This document shows, piece after piece, positions 2,069-36,584 of a stretch of 64,000 nt of DNA. The notes under the pieces were generated by a model. The model was not told the origin of the DNA. It saw nothing but the letters and a program-made list of their open reading frames with translations, and searched no databases. Positions within the stretch are counted from its first letter, which is position 1. Every line of letters starts with the position of its first letter. The position numbers and the translations under genes were made by a program. Source of the stretch: a virus; the IMG/VR virus record IMGVR_UViG_3300047509_000088, positions 1 to 64,000 of that record. One strand, written 5' to 3'.

Positions 2069-2533
2069 ATGCCCGGCAGAGGACCCGCACCCCAGCCCAC
2101 CGCCCTGAAGGTGTTGAACGGCAACCCCGGCAAGCGTGCCCTGCCGAAGGACGAGCCCAAGCCGGACCCGGCCGAGCCGTTCATGCCGCCGTTCCTTGAC
2201 CAGGACGCCCGCGCGGAGTGGCGGCGGATCGTGCCCATCCTGCTCAAGATGGGCGTGCTGACGGTGGCGGATGGCGCCGCTCTGGCCTCCTACTGCGAGA
2301 CGTACTCGACCTACACTCACGCGCTCAAGGTGATCGAGGAGGAGGGGATGTCCTTCCAGAGCCCCAAGACGATGGTCGAGCACCTTCGGCCCGAGGTGGG
2401 GATCGTCCAGCAGTGCCGGGTCCACATCAAGGCGTTCTGCCAGGAGTTCGGGATGACGCCGTCGGCGCGTTCGCGCATGACCGTGGCCAACAACGAGAAG
2501 GAGAAGGACGGCATGGAGGGCCTCCTCCAGTGA
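2069..2533 (+). CDS. terS: Terminase small subunit, P27 family
   Basis: A 154-aa protein beginning MPGRGPAPQPTALKVLNGNP, the hallmark N-terminus of P27-family small terminases, followed by a helical body with conserved tryptophan and tyrosine positions. It would recognise phage DNA and regulate the large subunit. Start at ATG 2069; the frame is open upstream but the family begins here. The gene ends in a GTGA overlap with a 40-codon gene and is followed by the large subunit. Confidence 0.88.
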   Translation: MPGRGPAPQPTALKVLNGNPGKRALPKDEPKPDPAEPFMPPFLDQDARAEWRRIVPILLKMGVLTVADGAALASYCETYSTYTHALKVIEEEGMSFQSPKTMVEHLRPEVGIVQQCRVHIKAFCQEFGMTPSARSRMTVANNEKEKDGMEGLLQ

Positions 2534-2652
2534 CCGAGGAGGACGAGAAGCCGTCTGGCGGGATCGTCTGGTGGTACCTCGACGAGGACGACGACGACTA
2601 CGCGGGGACGGCGGTAGATCGACGTCGTCGGGTGTGGAAGTCGTCCGGGTAG
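2530..2652 (+). CDS. 40-aa acidic/basic small protein
   Basis: A GTG start overlaps the small terminase stop (GTGA), with GGAGGG upstream as ribosome-binding site. The peptide has a Trp pair, an acidic patch (DEDDDDY) and a basic tail (DRRRRVW). It sits between the two terminase genes. No function recognised; the tight overlap and ribosome-binding site are the main support. Confidence 0.45.
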   Translation: MTEEDEKPSGGIVWWYLDEDDDDYAGTAVDRRRRVWKSSG

Positions 2653-2658
2653 ACCCGG

Positions 2659-4227
2659 ATGAGCTGGCAGCCTCGTAACGCGGCCGAGCGAGATGCCGCC
2701 GATCGCGCCGTCCAGTTCATCTCTCTCCTGACGCATACCAAGGGCAAGTGGGCGGGCAAGCCGTTTGATCTCCTTCCATGGCAAAGGGACATCATCCGTC
2801 CTGTGTTCGGCACGCTCAATCCGGACGGCTCACGGACTATTCGGACTGTGTATGTCGAGGTGCCCAGGAAGCAGGGTAAGTCGGAGTTAGCGGCAGCAGT
2901 TGCATTGAAGCTTCTGTTCGCGGACAAAGAGCCCGGCGGCGAAGTCTATGGCGCCGCAAACGACCGCGATCAGGCGTCGATTGTTTTCAACGTCGCCGGT
3001 CAGATGGTTAGAACCAATGCCGCCCTGCGTAGTCACTCGCGCGTGATCGACTATTCGAAGAGAGTGGTAGTGACCAAGGGCATCAGTGAGGGGTCTGTCT
3101 ACAGGGCAATCCCCGCCGATGCGGCCGGCTCTCACGGGTTTAACGCCTCTGGCGTGATCTTTGATGAGATCCACACTCAACCCAACAGGGATCTGTGGGA
3201 CGTCTTGACGACCGCCACCGCCGCGCGCAATCAGCCGTTGACATTCGGTATCACGACGGCTGGATACGACAGGAATTCGATCTGCTGGGAGCTGCATGAG
3301 AGGGCCCGCCAGATTATCGAGGGGGTGATCGTGGACCCCACCTGGTTCGCGGTGATCCACGCTGCTCCCGAGGAAGCCGACTGGCGCGACGAACAGGTCT
3401 GGCGGGATGCCAATCCGTCCTTTGGGATCACGGTGCCCAAGGAATACTTCGAGCAACAGGCGCAACAGGCGATCACGAGTCCTGCGTACGAGAACACGTT
3501 CAGAAGGTTGCATCTCAATCAATGGACGGCACAGCAGTCCCGGTTTATTCCGATGCGGGACTGGGACGCCTGTGCTGGTCCTGTAGTCGAGGCCAGTCTG
3601 ACGGGCAGGACGTGCTATGCCGGCGTCGACCTCGCCTCGACGACCGACCTGTCTGCATTGGCCCTTGTTTTTCCGCCGGCCGATCCGAATGTCGGCGAGT
3701 ACGAGGTCGTTATGCGTTTCTGGGCTCCGGAGAGTCGTCTGGAAGAGCGGGGGTCCAGGGATCGTGTGCCGTATAGGCACTGGGTCCAGACCGGTTTCTT
3801 GGAAGCGACCGAAGGCAATGTGATCGACTATGCCGCGATCGAGCGAGAGATCCAAAAAGCGTCCCTCAAATACCGACTACCCCAATTGGCGGTTGACAGA
3901 CTGTTCAACGCCGAGTATCTCGCCCAGCGGATCGACGACACCGGCATCGAGGTCGAGCGGCGCGGGATGGGCTTTCTCGACATGTCGTTCCCGACGAAGG
4001 AACTCCTTCGGCTGATCCTTCAGCGGCGGATTCGCCATGGCGGCCATCCGATTCTTCGCTGGATGGCCGATAATCTGATGGCGGAACAGGATGCGGCTGG
4101 AAACGTCAAGCCGTCCAAGGCCAAGTCCACGCAGAGGATTGACGGGATCGTCGCGTTGATCTTGGCCCTCGACCTCGCCCTGCGCCACCAGGATGACGAA
4201 TATGACGTCCTGGAAAGTGTGAAATGA
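2659..4227 (+). CDS. terL: Terminase large subunit
   Basis: A 522-aa DNA-packaging motor. The ATPase domain has a Walker A-like VPRKQGKS (68-75) and Walker B GVIFDEI (165-171). The C-terminal RNase H-fold nuclease starts near YAGVDLASTTD (320-330), where the aspartates would bind metal. Length and motif order match Terminase_1-type large subunits of HK97-like siphophages. It pumps DNA into the prohead through the portal encoded next. Confidence 0.95.
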   Translation: MSWQPRNAAERDAADRAVQFISLLTHTKGKWAGKPFDLLPWQRDIIRPVFGTLNPDGSRTIRTVYVEVPRKQGKSELAAAVALKLLFADKEPGGEVYGAANDRDQASIVFNVAGQMVRTNAALRSHSRVIDYSKRVVVTKGISEGSVYRAIPADAAGSHGFNASGVIFDEIHTQPNRDLWDVLTTATAARNQPLTFGITTAGYDRNSICWELHERARQIIEGVIVDPTWFAVIHAAPEEADWRDEQVWRDANPSFGITVPKEYFEQQAQQAITSPAYENTFRRLHLNQWTAQQSRFIPMRDWDACAGPVVEASLTGRTCYAGVDLASTTDLSALALVFPPADPNVGEYEVVMRFWAPESRLEERGSRDRVPYRHWVQTGFLEATEGNVIDYAAIEREIQKASLKYRLPQLAVDRLFNAEYLAQRIDDTGIEVERRGMGFLDMSFPTKELLRLILQRRIRHGGHPILRWMADNLMAEQDAAGNVKPSKAKSTQRIDGIVALILALDLALRHQDDEYDVLESVK

Positions 4228-4243
4228 CTGGTAGGATGGGCTG

Positions 4244-5701
4244 ATGGGCTGGCGTGATCGTTTGCTAGGCGGATCTAGTAGGCAGCGGGTCGAGGAGCTG
4301 GAGGGCCGCGTCCGGGATCTCTCTGAGTTGAGGTCAATCGACACGCTCCCGTGGAATGTCGGCGCCGACGCGCCGACCCGGACGCCATCCGCCGAGCGTG
4401 CGATGCGCCTGGCGCCGGTCTACGCGGCTGTCTCGCTGATCGCCCGGAACGTCTCGACCCAGCCACTTCACGCCTACCGGAAGGCCGGCACGGGCAGCCC
4501 GGTGACCCGCATGCCCTATCTGCCCCAGTTGTTCCAGAGTCCGTCGATCCATGGCGGCCTGGTGGCGTGGCTGCATCGTCTTCTGACCAGCCTGCTACTG
4601 GACGGCAACGCCTATGGTCTGATCACACAGAGAGACGGGTACGGTTTCCCGACCATGATCGAATGGCTCAATCCGGCCCAGGTCTATGTTTGGGACGAGA
4701 GCCAGTGGGGAAGGGGGTCGTACTGGGATCCAATCTACTACTGGCGCGGGCGAGAGGTCGATAGAGAGAATCTCGTTCACATCCCCTTCTTCGCGGTCCC
4801 GTTCCGGGTCAGGGGACTCAGTCCAATGGGTGCGTTCGCGTCGGCGGTTGACATCGGTCTCGAAGGTCAGAAGTACGCTTCCGACTGGTACCGAGCTGGC
4901 GGAGTGCCGCCGGGCACGTTCAAGAATGCGAACAAGACAATCAACGACACCGAGGCTACCGCCGTCAAGGGTCGGTTGGTCGACTCGATCCGGACACATC
5001 AGCCGCTCGTGTATGGCGCCGACTGGGACTACTCGCCGATTGCGATCAATCCTCGTGACGCGATCTTCGTGGAAACCCACCAGATGTCGGCGACCGACAT
5101 CGCGTCTGTCTACGGGATCTATCCGCCGGAGAGGATCGGCGGCAACACGGGCGGAAGATCCGTCGTGTACGCGAATGTCGAGCAGGAACAGATCCAGTTT
5201 ATTCAGTTGACGTTGTTGCCGTATGTCGCCACCCTCGAATCGACCTTTTTCGATCTGCTGCCCGAGCCTCAGTACGTCAAGTTCAATCTCGACGCTCAGA
5301 TTCGGACCGACACCAAGACCCGGCACGAGGTTCATCAGATCGACCGTGAGATCGGCCTTAAGAATATCGACGAGATCCGTGAGGTCGAAGACATGGCGCC
5401 GCTGCCGAACGGAGAGGGCAAGGTCTACGACCCGCTGATCGTGGTCAGGGAGACGATCAAGGCCACCGCTCAGTCTCAATTCAATCCGAACCAGCCCAAC
5501 TTCCAGACCGCGCCCGCGCCGGTCACCGAACCCGGTCAGCCGGCTGCACCTGGTCAGCCGGCGGCGGCACCGGCCTCGTCAAATGGATCAACCGGCTCAA
5601 ACGGAACCAATGGCCGATTCACCGGCAGCCTGGACGAGCTGGCGGTCGCCGGCCCGGCCGGACGGTCGCGAGGAGAGGATAGTGACTTCCCGCCTTTCTG
5701 A
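4244..5701 (+). CDS. Portal protein, HK97 family
   Basis: A 485-aa portal protein. Recognisable segments are the N-terminal APVYAAVSLIARNVST helix, LLLDGNAYGLI, the LSPMGAFASAVDIGLEGQKYA stretch (family signature, here shortened in reading) and MSATDIASVYGIYPPERIG near the crown. The C-terminal 90 residues are a low-complexity Pro/Gly/Asn tail. ATG 4244 is preceded by AGGATGGG. It would form the dodecameric DNA channel at the capsid vertex. Its 3' end overlaps the next gene. Confidence 0.93.
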   Translation: MGWRDRLLGGSSRQRVEELEGRVRDLSELRSIDTLPWNVGADAPTRTPSAERAMRLAPVYAAVSLIARNVSTQPLHAYRKAGTGSPVTRMPYLPQLFQSPSIHGGLVAWLHRLLTSLLLDGNAYGLITQRDGYGFPTMIEWLNPAQVYVWDESQWGRGSYWDPIYYWRGREVDRENLVHIPFFAVPFRVRGLSPMGAFASAVDIGLEGQKYASDWYRAGGVPPGTFKNANKTINDTEATAVKGRLVDSIRTHQPLVYGADWDYSPIAINPRDAIFVETHQMSATDIASVYGIYPPERIGGNTGGRSVVYANVEQEQIQFIQLTLLPYVATLESTFFDLLPEPQYVKFNLDAQIRTDTKTRHEVHQIDREIGLKNIDEIREVEDMAPLPNGEGKVYDPLIVVRETIKATAQSQFNPNQPNFQTAPAPVTEPGQPAAPGQPAAAPASSNGSTGSNGTNGRFTGSLDELAVAGPAGRSRGEDSDFPPF

Positions 5702-6437
5702 TTCGTCTGACGCCGAAGAGAGGATCGGTTCATCCAATCAGTCCCATGATTCGTCTGGCAAGTTCGGCGCCGGCAACGTCCCCGGGACGGTATCAGGCCA
5801 CGGCAAGAAGGGCGGACCCTACGCCCAGAAACATTCCCCGGGCGGACCAAGCGCGGGAGGGGGAGGCGGCGAGTCCGATCCGACCAGCGGCGAGTCGAGC
5901 GGCGGGACCAATCGCCCCGGCAAGAAGGAGACGATCACCTCGTCTGGCCAGTCGGCTGCCGTGCAAGCGTGGCTGGGGCCATCTCAGGCAGCGATCAACG
6001 CTGAAGCGATCAGTGGCCAGCCGGGGCAGTACGCGACGACCATCGCCGCGCTCGACGCCGAGATCAAGTCGTCCAAGCCGCACACCGCCGACCTGGTCGT
6101 CTATCGGGAGATCTCTGGGGCGGAGACGCTGACGATCGGTGGTACAGTGACAACCAAAGGATTCATGGCTACGTCGCCAACTCCACTCTCTGCGACGGCG
6201 TCCAGGATCACGATCCCGGCCGGGGCACATGCCCTGACTCTGCCGGGCGAGGTGCTCCTACCAAGAGGCACCCAGCTTCGAGTAGATGGCCCGAGACAAT
6301 TCACTGTCCAACTCGCGTCGAACGGAGGCCGTCACCTCGCGTACTACCGGCTGCTGTGGATGCAATCGGATACTCCGGAGCAGCGAGCCGAGATTCTTGC
6401 CGCAGTCAACCGCATTCAGGGCGGAATGCGCCCATAA
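5682..6437 (+). CDS. ADP-ribosyltransferase-like virion protein
   Basis: The GTG at 5682 is chosen because AGGAGAGG lies just upstream; it overlaps the portal end by 20 bases. After a Gly/Ser-rich N-terminal half (1-95), the C-terminal domain has the R-S-E order of mono-ADP-ribosyltransferases: VVYREIS with R142, FMATSPT with S165, and GEVLLPRGT with E190. Such domains are often fused to the Mu gpF-like head protein next to portals and are presumed to be injected to modify host targets. Here there is no MuF domain. Only one glutamate of the usual ExE pair is plain, so activity is uncertain. Confidence 0.7.
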   Translation: MTSRLSDSSDAEERIGSSNQSHDSSGKFGAGNVPGTVSGHGKKGGPYAQKHSPGGPSAGGGGGESDPTSGESSGGTNRPGKKETITSSGQSAAVQAWLGPSQAAINAEAISGQPGQYATTIAALDAEIKSSKPHTADLVVYREISGAETLTIGGTVTTKGFMATSPTPLSATASRITIPAGAHALTLPGEVLLPRGTQLRVDGPRQFTVQLASNGGRHLAYYRLLWMQSDTPEQRAEILAAVNRIQGGMRP

Positions 6438-27243: not shown

Positions 27244-29349
27244 ATGCGCGTCCTGGTTACCGGAGCCGCTGGGTTCCTTGGACATCATTTTGTGGAGCAT
27301 GTCCTTCGGACTCAGCCAGACTGGGAGGTGGTGGGGCTGGCGAGCTTCGCTCATAGGGGCTGTCCGCTCCGGTTGAAACACCTCGTGGACAATCCCCGGT
27401 TCGAGCTGGTCCCGAAGGTCGACCTGGCGGCGCCGATCACTTATCGGATCGCGAACGTAATCGGCCCGATTGATGCGATCGTCAACTACGCGGCTGAGAG
27501 TCACGTGGATAGATCAATCGAAGACCCGAGGCCGTTCGTGTCGAATAACGTCGAGCTGACCATGACCATTCTGGAGTACGCCAGAATGGTCAAGCCGAAG
27601 TGCGTGATCCAGGTCTCGACTGACGAAGTGTACGGCCCCGCCAAGTTCGGACAAAGACACGCGGAGTGGAGTCCGATCCTCCCGTCCAATCCATATTGTC
27701 TGCCTCCAACCTCCCGGATCGTGACGACTCGCGGTCTTCGACCGATTAGCGAGTTTGATCCATGGACGGAAAACGCGGTATCCCGAAACCATGGACGCAT
27801 TTGTGGCGAACAGTCGGTTGCAGCTAAGTATACCAAGCAGTTTAAGGGTGAACTGCTCAGGATCGAAACCGAGCACGGGTCACTAGAGGTAACCCCTGAA
27901 CACACGCTCTTCAAGCGTGGGACTGGATACTCTGGTGCTCCTGTGCAAGTTTTCGGAGGCACTTGGCTACCGGGACGTCCACACCATCAGATCGACGAGA
28001 TCCAAGCCATGGACGTTGCAGTCGGCCAGCATCTCATGTTGGCTCGCCGAATCCCGGCCCCCTGCGACGCAAGGGAAGTGCCTCTTGCACTGGCCCGTTT
28101 TCTTGGCTACTTTGTAGGAGACGGATCATATTCAAAGCGTAGTCGATACGTGAGGCTTGCGGATCAGAACGTGGAACGACTGGATCGATACCGCCAGTGG
28201 CTGAAAGTCGAACTTGGACCAAGCCTGAAGTCAGTGACTGGCGCGTTTGGTACGATCTATAAGCATGGCTCCAAGGATTGCCATTACCTTCAGTTCGCAT
28301 CGGAATCGCTTAGATGTCGAATCGATCTGGAGCGACCAAAATCCGAACTGGCCTGGACGTTAGCAGATACAACGGACGAGGTTGTGGGCGCCTACATCGC
28401 CGGGTTCTTTGACGCCGAGGCCCACTACCAATACAAAGATGGTCGACTTGTAAATGTCACCGTCTTTCAGGCCGACAAGACAATCCTGGAGGCGGCGCAA
28501 TTCTATCTGCGTCGCCTAGGAATCGTGGCCAAGATTATGCCCCATCGAAGGGGCTATCGGCTATCAATTCACGAGAATCTCTCTAGACGTAGGGCGCTGG
28601 GAATCTGCACAGACAAAGCCATACCCGACGCCGGCCTGAGCAAGGCGCAGCAACGGGGCTGGGCAAAAAGTTCAGACCACATGTGGACAAGAGTCAGCAA
28701 AGTGACCAAGGTTTTCTATGAAGGGCCTGTCTATGATCTGGAGATGAGTGGCCTACATCCAAACTTCATAGCAGACTACTTCGTTGTCCACAACAGCGCC
28801 TCCAAGGCCGCACAGGAAGCAATTGCGATCTCATGGTGGCGGACGTACGGCGTACCGGTCGTAATCGTCAATTCGATGAACCTGATCGGTGAAAGACAGG
28901 ACGGCGAGAAGTTCCTCCCTCTCCTGATCAGACACATCTCGCAAAACGAGGTGGTTCCGATTCACGGTCAAGCCGTCGGGATCGGGACAGATCATATCTT
29001 CGGCTCGCGGATGTACCTGCATGCCCGGAACCTCGCTGATGCTCTGATCTGGTTATTAAAAAGACCGGTCAATAAGTATCCGGACACGGACCGGCCGGAC
29101 AGGTGGAACGTCGTCGGTGAGCGGGAGATCTCGAACCTCGAACTCGCGCAGATGGTGGCAGCCATCTTGGAAAAGAGGCTCCGTTATAAGGTGATCGACT
29201 TTCATGACGCACGGCCCGGTCATGATAGACGGTATGCCTTGGACGGGACCGCGATCCGGGAAGCCGGATGGGAGCAGCCTATTGATTTTATGGAGTCGTT
29301 AGAGCGGACTGTTCGCTGGACAATTCGTAATCCCGAGTGGGTCAAATAG
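27244..29349 (+). CDS. dTDP-glucose 4,6-dehydratase-like protein interrupted by an intein
   Basis: 701 codons. The exteins (residues 1-151 and 518-701, 335 aa together) form an RmlB-like extended SDR: VTGAAGFLGHHF for NAD, STDEVYG with its catalytic aspartate/glutamate, the Y-x3-K motif reconstituted as NPY|SASKA, and ARPGHDRRYAL near the end. The enzyme would make an NDP-4-keto-6-deoxysugar for the nearby glycosyltransferases. The intein (152-517) sits immediately after the catalytic Tyr, so there is no activity before splicing. Start ATG 27244 after AAGGGGAGGGG. Confidence 0.9.
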   Translation: MRVLVTGAAGFLGHHFVEHVLRTQPDWEVVGLASFAHRGCPLRLKHLVDNPRFELVPKVDLAAPITYRIANVIGPIDAIVNYAAESHVDRSIEDPRPFVSNNVELTMTILEYARMVKPKCVIQVSTDEVYGPAKFGQRHAEWSPILPSNPYCLPPTSRIVTTRGLRPISEFDPWTENAVSRNHGRICGEQSVAAKYTKQFKGELLRIETEHGSLEVTPEHTLFKRGTGYSGAPVQVFGGTWLPGRPHHQIDEIQAMDVAVGQHLMLARRIPAPCDAREVPLALARFLGYFVGDGSYSKRSRYVRLADQNVERLDRYRQWLKVELGPSLKSVTGAFGTIYKHGSKDCHYLQFASESLRCRIDLERPKSELAWTLADTTDEVVGAYIAGFFDAEAHYQYKDGRLVNVTVFQADKTILEAAQFYLRRLGIVAKIMPHRRGYRLSIHENLSRRRALGICTDKAIPDAGLSKAQQRGWAKSSDHMWTRVSKVTKVFYEGPVYDLEMSGLHPNFIADYFVVHNSASKAAQEAIAISWWRTYGVPVVIVNSMNLIGERQDGEKFLPLLIRHISQNEVVPIHGQAVGIGTDHIFGSRMYLHARNLADALIWLLKRPVNKYPDTDRPDRWNVVGEREISNLELAQMVAAILEKRLRYKVIDFHDARPGHDRRYALDGTAIREAGWEQPIDFMESLERTVRWTIRNPEWVK
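27697..28794 (+). mobile_element. Intein with in-frame LAGLIDADG endonuclease (dehydratase host)
   Basis: 366 aa. Block A begins at Cys1 (CLPPTSRIVTTRGLRP), block B has VTPEHTLF (TxxH), the endonuclease has FLGYFVGDGSYS and YIAGFFDAEAHY, and the C-terminus is FVVHN followed by Ser+1. All splicing residues (Cys1, block B His, penultimate His, Asn, Ser+1) are present, so it should be active in splicing and probably in homing. Removing it restores NPYSASKA exactly. Confidence 0.92.
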
Positions 29350-31766: not shown

Positions 31767-34712
31767 CTAAATCCTATACCCCTGATGCCCTTCCGCAATC
31801 CAGATGAGCGTCTTCTTGGCGCGGGTGGCGGCGACATAAAAGACCCGATTTTCGCCGTCTGGATTGTCGTTATATTCCTGGTAGGTTCGGCGGGTCATAC
31901 TAACTGAGGTGGCGACGTGGTCGGCCTCCTCGCCCTTGGCGCCGTGAATAGTCGAGATCTCCACTCGCGGCTTCTCGGATAGACTAGCCAGACCGAACCG
32001 CTTGACAATCCGTTTGAGGTATTTCCGCTCATACGGCTCCATCCGGATTGCCTCAAGGGGATCATTCCAGAGCTGTTCGGTTAGACGAGAAGAGGCGCCG
32101 GCCTTCATCAGGTCGGGAAGACCATACAGGTGCGACCACTGCGTCCTGTCCACTTCCCACTGATCGGGATAGATCTGGCGCATTAGTTGCTTGAGGCGGC
32201 CCTGTCGAACCAGCCGACCCGAATTGAGTTCGGCGGCAACCTTGATCGCCAAGCCTCGATCCCGAGTCGGATCGGGGATTCCCTGGCTGGACGTTCTGTC
32301 TTTGAACGGTATACCCCCCTCTACGAGCATCCCCCGGGCGACTTCGGCAAACACCCGATTCCTGACCAGGAGCAGCCACGAGTCATCCGCCGTCGCCGCG
32401 ATCCTCTCGGCCAGCCCCATCCCCCCCTCCGGCTTGTCGGCCCAGCCGAACAGACGGTCGACCTCCCCGCCTTCGTAGTGGGGCTCGAAGCCGCCCGGGG
32501 CTCGCTCGGCAACGGGAACTCGATTGATGATCGACAATGCTTCGGCGTGAACGACGGACGGCAGCCGGTATGAATGCGAGAGGTACATCTGGTGGCCGGG
32601 ACGCTCCCAGACCTCAGACGGGATGGCGCCGCTGAAGGCAAAGATGCACTGATTCACATCACCAAAGGCCATGAGATAGTCCGCGTCCTCTTTCCACATG
32701 TCGACTACCCGCCACTGACACGGCGTCAAGTCCTGGCAGTTCTTTACGAGGATTCCATTGGCGAAGAAGTTGTGGTTGTCCTCTACGTCGAGGCAATAAA
32801 CTGACCCATCGAGTTGCGCTGCCTTCGACTGAAGTCGCGGGGCCCCGATGTTTTCCAGCTCAAGTCTGCTTGGCACTGGTCGCTGCATGTTCGAGGAAGA
32901 GGATGACCCAGCGCCTTCCTGGTAGTGCTGAACTGATCGCCACAGATCACGCAGATTCCGGTTATTGTCTCTAGTTTGGCGGGGTGGCGCAATCGAGATT
33001 GTGCCGTCATCAACCTGAATCGTGCTAGCTCGCATTCCCTGGAGTCGCAGATTCGCCACGTTCCGCGATTGCTGATTTGGCGTCCACAGATATCGCAGAA
33101 TCGAGGTGGCGGCTCCATTTTGATCGTTACTTCCGGAAGGGTTGGCCTTAGATCGCCTCGAAGCTTGTAGATGAGAGAGGGATGAATGTATGGTCGAAAT
33201 CGCCTGCGCAATTCGTTGACGTAAGCTGAGGGAAAGTAGATCACCGGACCCTTCTTGGTTTCGTGGATGTGACATCCCAGCCCCATCGATATCAGATGAT
33301 CCCGGACGAACTTCACCTCTTCGCGCGAACGACTGCTCACTGTTATACACATGCTTCTGTCGCGTGATGATCCATCGTCCATGAACCAAACCGCCAAGGC
33401 CAGGTTGTCCACCCACGATAGGAGCTGAGGGGTGATAATCTTGGGGCCATTGGGTCGAGCTATTCGATGAATCTCGGTGAAGACTGGATGGCTCTTGGTG
33501 GAGAAGCTGTAGACAGAGCCGCCGAAAGAGGTGGGGGATGGACCTCTTATGGGGGATGACCACCGAACCAGCATGTCGTGTTTCCACCGAAGGTATCCGA
33601 GTTGTGCTTGCCCCTGAACGAATCGAACTCGTGCGTTCCCCCGTGGACCGGGGCTCAAGCTGATCGAGGCGTCTCCAAGTAGCGATCCGACCACGATTGA
33701 TCGCTCCGACGGTGAGAGCTTCTCCGAGGGGTCGTATGTTTTCACTGGTCAATTGTAGCACGCGGTCCAAGATCTGACACCGCTCCAGTGGAACGTATCC
33801 CTTTCCCAGTACGAGAAGAGGATGGTTGCCCGTGGCTGTGAGCGGTCCCGCCTGGTACAGCGAACGTCCGCGCAACGGATTCATATGCCAGCCAGTAACT
33901 CGTTTGGGTTCGATTGAATCGGTGGCGGGGTTGTAACTGAGGACCGATACTGACAGTCGGCGCTCGACGATCTCTCGGATAGGCATCTGGCTGCCGTTCG
34001 CCAGCGTAACCATCGAATCACCGGGAAGGCACTCGTCAGTGAATATCCATTTGACGGGTGGGCGAAGGCGTTCGCGGAGGACAATTTCAAGCATGTCCGC
34101 GAAATCAAACAGGCCGGAGGATTGCTTCCACTCATGGTACGTATCCGAGAACTTCGCGGCGTCCCTCTCGCCCCAGGGGGTGTCCGTCGGATTCTTGAGG
34201 CGCATCATTCGAACTATCTCAGGGATGGTCTTGACCAGCGCCCGTCTAAGTTCTTCGGCGACGTAGCACCAGTCCCCGAAGGTGACAATCGATCCCACGG
34301 CATACGGATCGTCAACCGACCTTTGATTCAATACGCCCTGGAACTTGTAGCCAGACGACTCGCCGAACTCCCGGAGGCCGGACATGGTCACAACCTGCTC
34401 GGATCTGAGTTGAAGCAATTGAAAGCACGTCGAGTGAATCGTCCTGACCCAGGGCATCTCGTTATCGGTCAGACCGTATTCGGTTGACAGGCGGCGTCTT
34501 AGTTCCTGAGTAGCGTTTCGGGTGAAGGCGTTCACGAGCATTTGGTCGGACGGCAATCCCGCCTTGAGGTGGGCGTCGAGGATCACACCCAGGCTTCGCG
34601 TCTTGCCGCACCCGGGGCTTCCGTAGATCATCACCTCGCGGTCATTGTCGACTTCGCGGTGCAGCTTGAGATCTGGAAGCAGCTCAAGCAGGCGGGCGGT
34701 CAGGGCGCTCAT
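31767..34712 (-). CDS. UvrD/PcrA-like SF1 helicase interrupted by an intein
   Basis: 981 codons. The exteins (residues 1-227 and 659-981, 550 aa together) make an SF1A helicase: Walker A GSPGCGKT (31-38), motif Ia NAFTRNATQEL, motif II reconstituted as FTDE|CQDL, YLSHSYRLPS (motif IV region), a VEISTIHGAKGEEADHV block (motif V) and NRVFYVAATRAKKTL (motif VI). The 431-aa intein interrupts motif II. The same open frame runs without a stop through the nested endonuclease gene, so full-length precursor can be made. Confidence 0.9.
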   Translation of the reverse strand: MSALTARLLELLPDLKLHREVDNDREVMIYGSPGCGKTRSLGVILDAHLKAGLPSDQMLVNAFTRNATQELRRRLSTEYGLTDNEMPWVRTIHSTCFQLLQLRSEQVVTMSGLREFGESSGYKFQGVLNQRSVDDPYAVGSIVTFGDWCYVAEELRRALVKTIPEIVRMMRLKNPTDTPWGERDAAKFSDTYHEWKQSSGLFDFADMLEIVLRERLRPPVKWIFTDECLPGDSMVTLANGSQMPIREIVERRLSVSVLSYNPATDSIEPKRVTGWHMNPLRGRSLYQAGPLTATGNHPLLVLGKGYVPLERCQILDRVLQLTSENIRPLGEALTVGAINRGRIATWRRLDQLEPRSTGERTSSIRSGASTTRIPSVETRHAGSVVIPHKRSIPHLFRRLCLQLLHQEPSSLHRDSSNSSTQWPQDYHPSAPIVGGQPGLGGLVHGRWIITRQKHVYNSEQSFARRGEVRPGSSDIDGAGMSHPRNQEGSGDLLSLSLRQRIAQAISTIHSSLSHLQASRRSKANPSGSNDQNGAATSILRYLWTPNQQSRNVANLRLQGMRASTIQVDDGTISIAPPRQTRDNNRNLRDLWRSVQHYQEGAGSSSSSNMQRPVPSRLELENIGAPRLQSKAAQLDGSVYCLDVEDNHNFFANGILVKNCQDLTPCQWRVVDMWKEDADYLMAFGDVNQCIFAFSGAIPSEVWERPGHQMYLSHSYRLPSVVHAEALSIINRVPVAERAPGGFEPHYEGGEVDRLFGWADKPEGGMGLAERIAATADDSWLLLVRNRVFAEVARGMLVEGGIPFKDRTSSQGIPDPTRDRGLAIKVAAELNSGRLVRQGRLKQLMRQIYPDQWEVDRTQWSHLYGLPDLMKAGASSRLTEQLWNDPLEAIRMEPYERKYLKRIVKRFGLASLSEKPRVEISTIHGAKGEEADHVATSVSMTRRTYQEYNDNPDGENRVFYVAATRAKKTLIWIAEGHQGYRI
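32783..33745 (-). CDS. LAGLIDADG homing endonuclease nested out of frame in the intein
   Basis: 320 codons from GTG 33745, in the +1 frame relative to the intein/helicase. Two LAGLIDADG motifs, SIVVGSLLGDASIS and NLALAVWFMDDGSS, match the LAGLIDADG_2 type usually seen as free-standing or intron-borne enzymes. Two C-terminal zinc knuckles follow (CDICGRQ...CDSREC and CVICGDQ...CSDQC). A TGA two codons upstream of the GTG shows it is not an in-frame extension. It ends inside intein block F. Expected role: cut the intein-free helicase allele. Confidence 0.85.
   Translation of the reverse strand: MKTYDPSEKLSPSERSIVVGSLLGDASISLSPGPRGNARVRFVQGQAQLGYLRWKHDMLVRWSSPIRGPSPTSFGGSVYSFSTKSHPVFTEIHRIARPNGPKIITPQLLSWVDNLALAVWFMDDGSSRDRSMCITVSSRSREEVKFVRDHLISMGLGCHIHETKKGPVIYFPSAYVNELRRRFRPYIHPSLIYKLRGDLRPTLPEVTIKMEPPPRFCDICGRQISNRGTWRICDSRECELARFRLMTAQSRLRHPAKLETITGICVICGDQFSTTRKALGHPLPRTCSDQCQADLSWKTSGPRDFSRRQRNSMGQFIAST
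33745..33760 (-). promoter_or_regulatory. Extended -10 box for a leaderless nested endonuclease transcript
   Basis: On the minus strand TGC-TACAAT (-10 at 33757-33752) is followed by 6 bases and then the GTG of the nested gene. This is the TANNNT-N6-start spacing seen at several operon heads here, so the mRNA would begin at the start codon. There is no Shine-Dalgarno sequence and no good -35, but the TGn extension can compensate. Confidence 0.6.
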
Positions 34713-35487: not shown

Positions 35488-36096
35488 CTAGCTGGAAGAT
35501 CGCGGCTGGATGCGCTCAACCCAGACAGCCGGCGGCTGGCCGGGTAAGGCGGTCAGTCGGGAGACACCAAGCAATCTTAATTTAGCCTTGTAGCGTTTCT
35601 TCGCTGCTTTGGCGCAGATTGAACACCATCGCTCACCGCTTGTTTTGCGTCGATCGAACGGATGACCTCTAGGGCAGACAGTTTTTCGAGCGTTGATAGC
35701 GGCCGGACCTTCTCCGCGAAGTGTATTCTCTCGTTCCGTGACCGGTTCCCCGCAGCAAGGATTGACACACCACGGATTCCGACAGAGATGATCAAGGTCT
35801 AACCCAGTAGGGATCGGGCCAATCATTTTCTCGTAGAGGAATCTATGCAGCAGGACTTGTTTACCCTGAGACGCAATGACAGCATAACGGTCATCGTTTG
35901 ATCTCTTACTATTTGAGCGACTCTTACGAAGCCTCCAGCATCCGTTATTGAGAGGTTCGATCCTCGACATTGCGCGATCAAAAGCAGAAGCCGATTGAGC
36001 CTCGCGTTGAACCCTCCTTCCAAAGGGAAGTTGGTGGCCGTTTACGAATCGTTTGCCCGGGTTCGGAGATTCACCACACCCGCATTCACAGCTCAT
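35488..36096 (-). CDS. HNH endonuclease (HNH_3 type) with captured 3' tail
   Basis: 202 aa; ATG 36096 overlaps the upstream gene's stop (ATGA). N-terminal Cys cluster (MSCECGCGES), then the HNH core LLHRFLYEKMIGPIP, LDLDHLCRNPWCVNPCC and GNTLR-like ERENTLRG, then a Cys pair (CPRGHPFD; WCSIC). The last 20 residues include ALPGQPPAVWVERI, nearly the same as the C-terminus of the upstream protein (ALPGLPPQVWVERI). That suggests the nuclease gene inserted at that 3' end. Probably a free-standing homing enzyme. Confidence 0.82.
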   Translation of the reverse strand: MSCECGCGESPNPGKRFVNGHQLPFGRRVQREAQSASAFDRAMSRIEPLNNGCWRLRKSRSNSKRSNDDRYAVIASQGKQVLLHRFLYEKMIGPIPTGLDLDHLCRNPWCVNPCCGEPVTERENTLRGEGPAAINARKTVCPRGHPFDRRKTSGERWCSICAKAAKKRYKAKLRLLGVSRLTALPGQPPAVWVERIQPRSSS

Positions 36097-36584
36097 ATTC
36101 TTTCTACCCATACTTGGGGCGGAAGGCCAGGTAAGGCAACCACGACTTTGCCGGATAGCTTCATAGCTTTCCGGATTGTGTCGGCGGTTCCGTTTGACTC
36201 GCCGTTCCAAAACGCGACTATCACGTCAGACGCCAGGACGATTACGGTATTCCGCTCAAACAGGGTTCGGACATATCGCTCACCCTGGGCGGTGACCTCG
36301 ATAACGTCTCGGCGGTACGTCTGGGCCTTGAGGCGAGCTTCCCGGTCGACCCCCCGAGCGCCTCCAGATATCACATATGCGTCGGGATGAAGCAGTTGTA
36401 TGAGCTTGCCGACCCGGTCAAGCTCGGGATAGTTCCGCGAACCGACGATTCCCACCCGTCTGGCGTCCTTCAAAATGTCAATTGAGGTCTTGATCGAAAA
36501 ACACCCCGCCTCGTCCGCGACCTCGGCGCCGACCTTGTTCATCGCCAGAGCGGGGTTGACCAATCCGGTATTGACGTCGGTCAT
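36093..36584 (-). CDS. SLOG-superfamily (DprA/YpsA-like) protein
   Basis: 163 aa from ATG 36584. Rossmann-like RRVGIVGSRNYPELDRV, the phosphate-binding YVISGGARGVDREARLKA, and VIVLASDVIVAFWNGESNGT followed by TIRKAMKLSGKVVV fit small SLOG/DUF2493-like nucleotide-binding proteins. Possible roles are DNA or nucleotide signalling. The 3' end is duplicated in the neighbouring HNH gene. Confidence 0.68.
   Translation of the reverse strand: MTDVNTGLVNPALAMNKVGAEVADEAGCFSIKTSIDILKDARRVGIVGSRNYPELDRVGKLIQLLHPDAYVISGGARGVDREARLKAQTYRRDVIEVTAQGERYVRTLFERNTVIVLASDVIVAFWNGESNGTADTIRKAMKLSGKVVVALPGLPPQVWVERI

Follow-up and report, generated by a model that had tools for sequence, protein, structure and literature searches.

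The homing endonuclease of an intein is generally expected to be encoded in frame with it, since enzyme and intein are spliced out together. Dassa et al. reportedly described, in 2009, fractured genes with split inteins in which a free-standing homing endonuclease gene (HEG) stands between the two halves. In phage methylases, the ShiLan domain and the Pacc40 insertion are out-of-frame HNH insertions (Arsenault, Gosselin and Gogarten 2025, PMC11855218), and a further out-of-frame example of the ShiLan kind has been published (PMC12613952). In the passages searched, mycobacteriophage intein surveys (PMC5050341) and a report on a cyanophage intein with an in-frame HNH domain (PMC6293099) describe no out-of-frame enzymes. 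Our literature searches, which did not extend to most subscription journals and preprints, returned no description of a HEG lying out of frame within an intein.

Here, we analyzed computationally a 64,000-nucleotide stretch of virus record IMGVR_UViG_3300047509_000088, referred to as the window, in which a helicase gene is interrupted by an intein that carries a LAGLIDADG endonuclease gene in its +1 frame. We consider it very likely that this is a composite mobile element, in which a gene of its own, overlapping the intein, encodes the homing endonuclease.

Two open frames in the helicase gene of the window

The locus comprises the following features, all on the minus strand.

31767–34712 (−): UvrD/PcrA-like helicase ORF interrupted by an intein, 981-aa precursor (Pfam UvrD-helicase 7e-22, UvrD_C 6e-11)
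34032–34712 (−): N-extein, ending ..FTDE at Walker B
32739–34031 (−): intein, 431 codons, from C1 to N431, followed by the +1 extein Cys (CQD)
33735–34031 (−): Hint N part, blocks A and B, with C1, T67 and H70 (pLDDT 84–91 over most of residues 1–90)
32814–33734 (−): intein-frame linker, a disordered, stop-free passenger reading of the HEG (pLDDT <50; 0 stops)
32739–32813 (−): Hint C part, blocks F and G, ending KN/C (pLDDT ~88–90 over most of residues 407–431)
31767–32738 (−): C-extein (CQDLTPCQ...)
32783–33745 (−): nested +1-frame HEG, 320 aa, GTG start (LAGLIDADG_2 3.2e-34)
33665–33697 (−): first LAGLIDADG motif of the HEG, IVVGSLLGDA, with D25, aligned to LGLILGDA of I-SceI
33368–33400 (−): second LAGLIDADG motif, LALAVWFMDDG (AVWFMDDG invariant in 8/8 members)
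32870–33097 (−): C-terminal Cys-pair (zinc knuckle) region of the HEG, from the family alignment
32783–32785 (−): HEG stop codon TAG, within the block-F codons gTA GAg (Val-Glu)
33749–33751 (−): TGA in the HEG frame, shortly 5' of its start, from the frame translation

The intein occupies residues 228–658 of the helicase ORF and is inserted at Walker B (FTDE/C...KN/CQD, where slashes mark the intein boundaries). NCBIfam profiles matched its C-terminal (TIGR01443, 1.5e-8) and N-terminal (TIGR01445, 1.3e-4) splicing regions. The class 1 Hint residues C1, T67, H70, block F His420, N431 and the +1 Cys are all present, and C1 and the TxxH of the N part are invariant across the family. The penultimate residue is Lys430 (32742–32744, −), where block G usually has His; among the six other complete LAGLIDADG members this residue is His in five and Ser in L005. 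The penultimate position varies among many active inteins.

AlphaFold prediction of the intein frame was confident only at residues 1–99 and 407–431, with pLDDT below 50 across residues 100–406. The first-pass annotation had described about 310 structureless central codons; the disorder stands, and the extent is corrected to about 307 residues between Hint parts of 99 and 25. In Foldseek searches the predicted Hint parts best matched the Ssp DnaB intein (1mi8) and also matched the Mtu RecA intein. The model thus places the window intein in the Hint fold, and the intein would be expected to splice.

The product of the +1 frame has a different character. A profile of the HEG family matched I-SceI (1e-22) with both LAGLIDADG motifs and their acidic residues aligned. 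AlphaFold, run with eight family sequences, gave a mean pLDDT of 81 and values above 90 over most of residues 11–190, and Foldseek returned I-WcaI and I-SceI with a TM score of 0.74 on the target. As modelled, the protein has an I-SceI-type LAGLIDADG_2 fold and is predicted to cleave DNA site-specifically. Because the intein ends fold as Hint and residues 100–406 are disordered, the structureless middle is explained as the unread frame of the enzyme gene. The TGA at 33749–33751 argues against a Hint–HEG fusion by simple read-in, and the HEG is probably translated as a free enzyme. No Shine-Dalgarno sequence was found upstream of the GTG start in the window, and the search for one across members gave inconsistent results. 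The annotation's reading of this frame, a 320-aa protein with two LAGLIDADG motifs and zinc knuckles, held in each particular.

Across the HEG span, the intein frame contains no stops and the third frame contains 18. We estimated the chance of such an opening by fixing the HEG protein and redrawing its codons from the usage of the ORF itself or of the host extein. The probability of a stop-free intein frame was ~10^-5.3 to 10^-5.7 for the window alone and 10^-2 to 10^-16 for each of seven relatives described below. Chance opening of the intein frame was therefore rejected on these statistics together with the relatives. The same figures bear on the reading of the locus as a group I or II intron, or a translational bypass element, that carries an HEG, with the intein frame open merely by coincidence. 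Phage introns often contain HEGs, and the enzyme is of a free-standing type. However, an Rfam intron search was negative at E up to 1, the open frame occurs at joint odds far below chance, and the boundaries of the element are those of Hint domains with C1, TxxH, block F and N/C. We regard an intron or bypass element as highly improbable.

Two further genes in the window carry endonuclease domains. A sugar-nucleotide epimerase-like gene (27244–29349, +) contains an ordinary intein with an in-frame LAGLIDADG_3 enzyme, the contrast that the annotation had pointed to, and an HNH_3 endonuclease ORF (35488–36210, −), possibly another mobile HEG, lies a short distance upstream of the helicase gene. 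The collections searched contained no close relatives of the window and yielded no empty site for its own helicase.

Recurrence of the layout with LAGLIDADG_2 and HNH enzymes

We drew LAGLIDADG_2 loci from IMG/VR and GTDB. The Hint N part proved too divergent for a profile scan of the collection. The seven closest loci (L001, L002, L003/L073, L004, L005, L023 and L081) all have a stop-free intein frame. All seven are inteins at Walker B, five in UvrD-like helicases (DE/C...CQD) and two in terminases (ADE/C...CQN in L004; V/C...CFVDE in L005). With the window included, the third frame of the LAGLIDADG members holds 9–33 stops, compared with none in the intein frame. At the remaining ~145 LAGLIDADG_2 loci, either both other frames contain stops or the enzyme belongs to an in-frame intein; a few show no stop, and these are short, GC-rich partial matches with no intein, for example L044. 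One candidate member with a single stop, L128, was rejected because it is actually an in-frame RecA intein.

The architecture of the members is uniform. The HEG is in the +1 phase in 8/8, and in the seven complete members it starts 283–292 nt downstream of the first intein base. In 8/8 it ends with a TAG within block F, 44 or 50 nt short of the intein end, supplied by the hydrophobic-acidic codon pair xTA GAx. The relatives thus keep exactly the arrangement claimed for the window, an intein and a separate LAGLIDADG_2 gene in two frames of one DNA stretch. The annotation had named a closed helicase frame in relatives, or compensating frameshifts at the junctions, as evidence that would speak against it; the frame is open in all seven and the junctions are the same.

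An exact +1 relation in every member is also what programmed ribosomal frameshifting would produce, giving one polypeptide of Hint N and HEG, possibly returning into Hint C, with the enzyme still an intein domain. The A-rich start region (GTGAAAAC, ATGAAAAA) could slip, and the lack of a Shine-Dalgarno sequence before the window's start fits such a scheme. Nevertheless, a stop in the HEG frame one to two codons before the start (window, L001, L002 and L081) leaves almost no room for a shift, the HEG has its own stop, and shifting in and out would not need a precursor frame free of stops for 310 codons. We therefore judge frameshifting very unlikely, and favor a separately initiated enzyme.

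Some members have additional features. Of the two inteins in the L005 terminase (2440–5985), the downstream one contains the nested HEG, and no endonuclease domain is obvious in the upstream one. In the L023 helicase (2–2581), the contig edge truncates the nested-HEG intein, and a second intein lies near the C-terminal motif of the helicase (GTNH/C...HN/SVKGGE). L081, a 15-kb contig of a Nostoc MAG, is the sole nested LAGLIDADG_2 member found in the cellular genome set; the contig probably derives from a phage or plasmid and was binned with the MAG. The Nostoc-relative genomes searched yielded only matches of 27–34% identity to its enzyme and no further copy.

To look beyond LAGLIDADG_2, we scanned IMG/VR DNA for a +1-frame TAG within block F, independently of any enzyme. 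The 115 matches were bimodal in the length of the +1 ORF upstream, which is at least 169 codons in eight and at most 95 codons in the rest. Each of the eight long ORFs codes for a LAGLIDADG or HNH nuclease; three belong to members already identified, and the other five lie in terminase inteins with a zinc-finger HNH enzyme (L166/L179, L233, L170 and L239). A second stop-signature pattern recovered only L001 and L002, and searches with L005 and L233 as queries recovered only themselves. Homology searches with the HNH members led to two cultured phages, bringing the non-redundant total to six terminase inteins with out-of-frame HNH nucleases.

L290, 2107–3261: terminase intein of Gordonia phage Clown gp5, with a hidden +1 HNH gene
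L291, 1468–4008: terminase intein of Synechococcus phage S-EIV1, with a nested HNH gene ending in TAA inside block F

In Clown and S-EIV1 the HNH gene is again in the +1 phase, with 0 stops in the intein frame and 10 and 27, respectively, in the third frame. Both proteins are annotated as terminase only, and the nested HNH gene is unmarked. In Clown the Val-Glu pair is written GTG GAG, so the HNH frame continues for 25 nt beyond the end of the intein. Gordonia phage Danyall, whose terminase exteins are 81% identical to those of Clown, lacks exactly the 385-aa intein (TGQPMD/FGIIDDP in Danyall; TGQPMD/intein/CGIIDDP in Clown). This exact empty site indicates that the composite was gained or lost as a unit.

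Recurrence with HNH enzymes goes beyond what the first-pass annotation foresaw. Because 13 or more further sequences share the layout, two cultured phages among them, and the nucleases involved are of two unrelated types, we conclude that it is real. This recurrence also bears on the possibility that two compensating sequencing or assembly indels mask an ordinary in-frame intein endonuclease. Such a pair of errors is conceivable in principle on a single contig, but the same offset and junctions occur in 14 non-redundant sequences, finished isolate genomes included, and the intein frame is stop-free throughout. We consider the chance of such an artifact negligible.

Selection on the two frames and origin of the nesting

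We examined how the two frames coexist. Across the 14 members, none of the 741 eligible codons before AA, AG or GA ends in T, compared with 721 of 2339 elsewhere. This absence only restates that the frame is open, yet it shows that openness was reached through synonymous choice. Each NNT codon has an NNC synonym, and since this change is always synonymous, any protein can be written in the +1 phase without stops in the overlapping frame. Placed in the +2 phase, 8/8 enzymes would carry at least one unavoidable stop.

Between-member identity at HEG codon positions 1, 2 and 3 was 0.49, 0.57 and 0.33, respectively. Conservation of positions 1 and 2 over position 3 marks the HEG frame as the selected one; its third position, which is the first position of the intein codons, is nearly free. 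Conservation of the linker protein beyond the HEG constraint and the no-stop rule was small (mean z 1.1; 0.7 in the interior; 0.4 without L081), and this slight excess of similarity may reflect shared ancestry. The linker is a stop-free passenger with almost no other constraint at the protein level. The proposal that selection kept both frames open thus stands as to openness, whereas little selection beyond freedom from stops is seen on the linker protein.

These values also bear on whether the HEG is a dead relic, a pseudogene inside a degenerating intein. The disordered linker and the missing penultimate His of the window intein could be taken as decay. In opposition to this, the HEG motifs are invariant among members at 25–54% identity, codon positions 1 and 2 are held while position 3 drifts, and the window HEG has an intact frame with both acidic motifs. 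A relic is accordingly very unlikely, and we retain the reading of a maintained enzyme gene.

In a 119-sequence tree, from which the partial L023 sequence was omitted, six nested enzymes formed one clade (100/99) placed among in-frame intein enzymes, with weak deep support. L005 fell apart from this clade as sister to L056, an in-frame LAGLIDADG_2 enzyme of a terminase intein (95/93). LAGLIDADG_2 enzymes accordingly became nested on two or more occasions, and HNH enzymes did so separately; the pairing with L056 favors conversion of in-frame enzymes. L056 (3077–6169) and the nested L005 constitute a natural in-frame/out-of-frame pair. Conversion through two compensating indels and a new start, or swapping of enzymes, would account for the nesting no less well than a free gene invading a mini-intein. 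Of the suggestion that a LAGLIDADG_2 gene invaded a mini-intein, the sharing of one DNA by two frames is upheld; invasion is not established, as the nested enzymes group with in-frame ones.

Proposed mechanism and comparison with known systems

We propose that a single mRNA is read in two ways. Ribosomes starting at the helicase start would make the 981-aa precursor, whose split Hint domain (intein residues 1–99 and 407–431) would fold across the disordered 307-residue linker and splice the helicase. Internal initiation at the GTG at 33745, or at the equivalent start ~283–292 nt into each intein, would yield the free enzyme, of I-SceI type with a zinc-knuckle tail. This enzyme would cut intein-less alleles at the Walker B codons, and repair would copy intein and HEG together, so that the composite spreads by homing. 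The overlap is upheld by synonymous selection in the HEG against T-ending codons before AA, AG or GA.

More broadly, we think it likely that these loci represent a recurrent "overlapping-gene intein" class, in which splicer and enzyme are separately translated, which has at least three origins (the main helicase/terminase LAGLIDADG_2 clade, the terminase L005 and the HNH set), and which is locked to the +1 phase by the synonymous NNT-to-NNC escape. Such a class would offer a second solution to the housing of homing endonucleases, with enzyme and splicer sharing DNA and not a polypeptide. It presents a long dual-coding stretch, ~960 bp on one strand, whose selective logic is plain, as the code makes the +1 phase always synonymously repairable. 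It also offers a testable case for how overlapping genes begin and are kept. A caution for genome annotation is that phage terminases and helicases hide nucleases that go unannotated, as in Clown gp5 and the S-EIV1 terminase.

Canonical endonuclease-bearing inteins (for example the PI-PfuI type; here L056, the RecA inteins L128/L105 and the window intein at 27244–29349) likewise have a Hint domain split by an endonuclease and Walker B insertion sites, and L056 and L105 encode related LAGLIDADG_2 enzymes. In these canonical inteins the enzyme is read in frame and excised with the intein, whereas in every nested member it lies in the +1 frame and would be a separate protein. I-SceI and I-WcaI share the two-motif monomeric fold and the aligned acidic motifs, but they are intron-encoded, have no C-terminal zinc knuckles and overlap no coding intein. 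In fractured genes, too, a single site provides both intein function and an endonuclease that is translated on its own; two genes flanking the HEG encode the intein there, whereas here one unbroken precursor frame crosses it.

The ShiLan domain is the closest published case. It too is an out-of-frame homing-type nuclease in an insertion that leaves the phage host frame open, with no Shine-Dalgarno sequence and a GTG start, and its zinc fingers and HNH domain resemble the HNH members found here. Unlike them, it lacks a splicing domain, is predicted to remain part of the methylase, and has its HNH gene in the third frame (PMC11855218). The window element, in contrast, is an intein with a Hint domain, and its enzyme is of the LAGLIDADG_2 type and encoded in the +1 frame.
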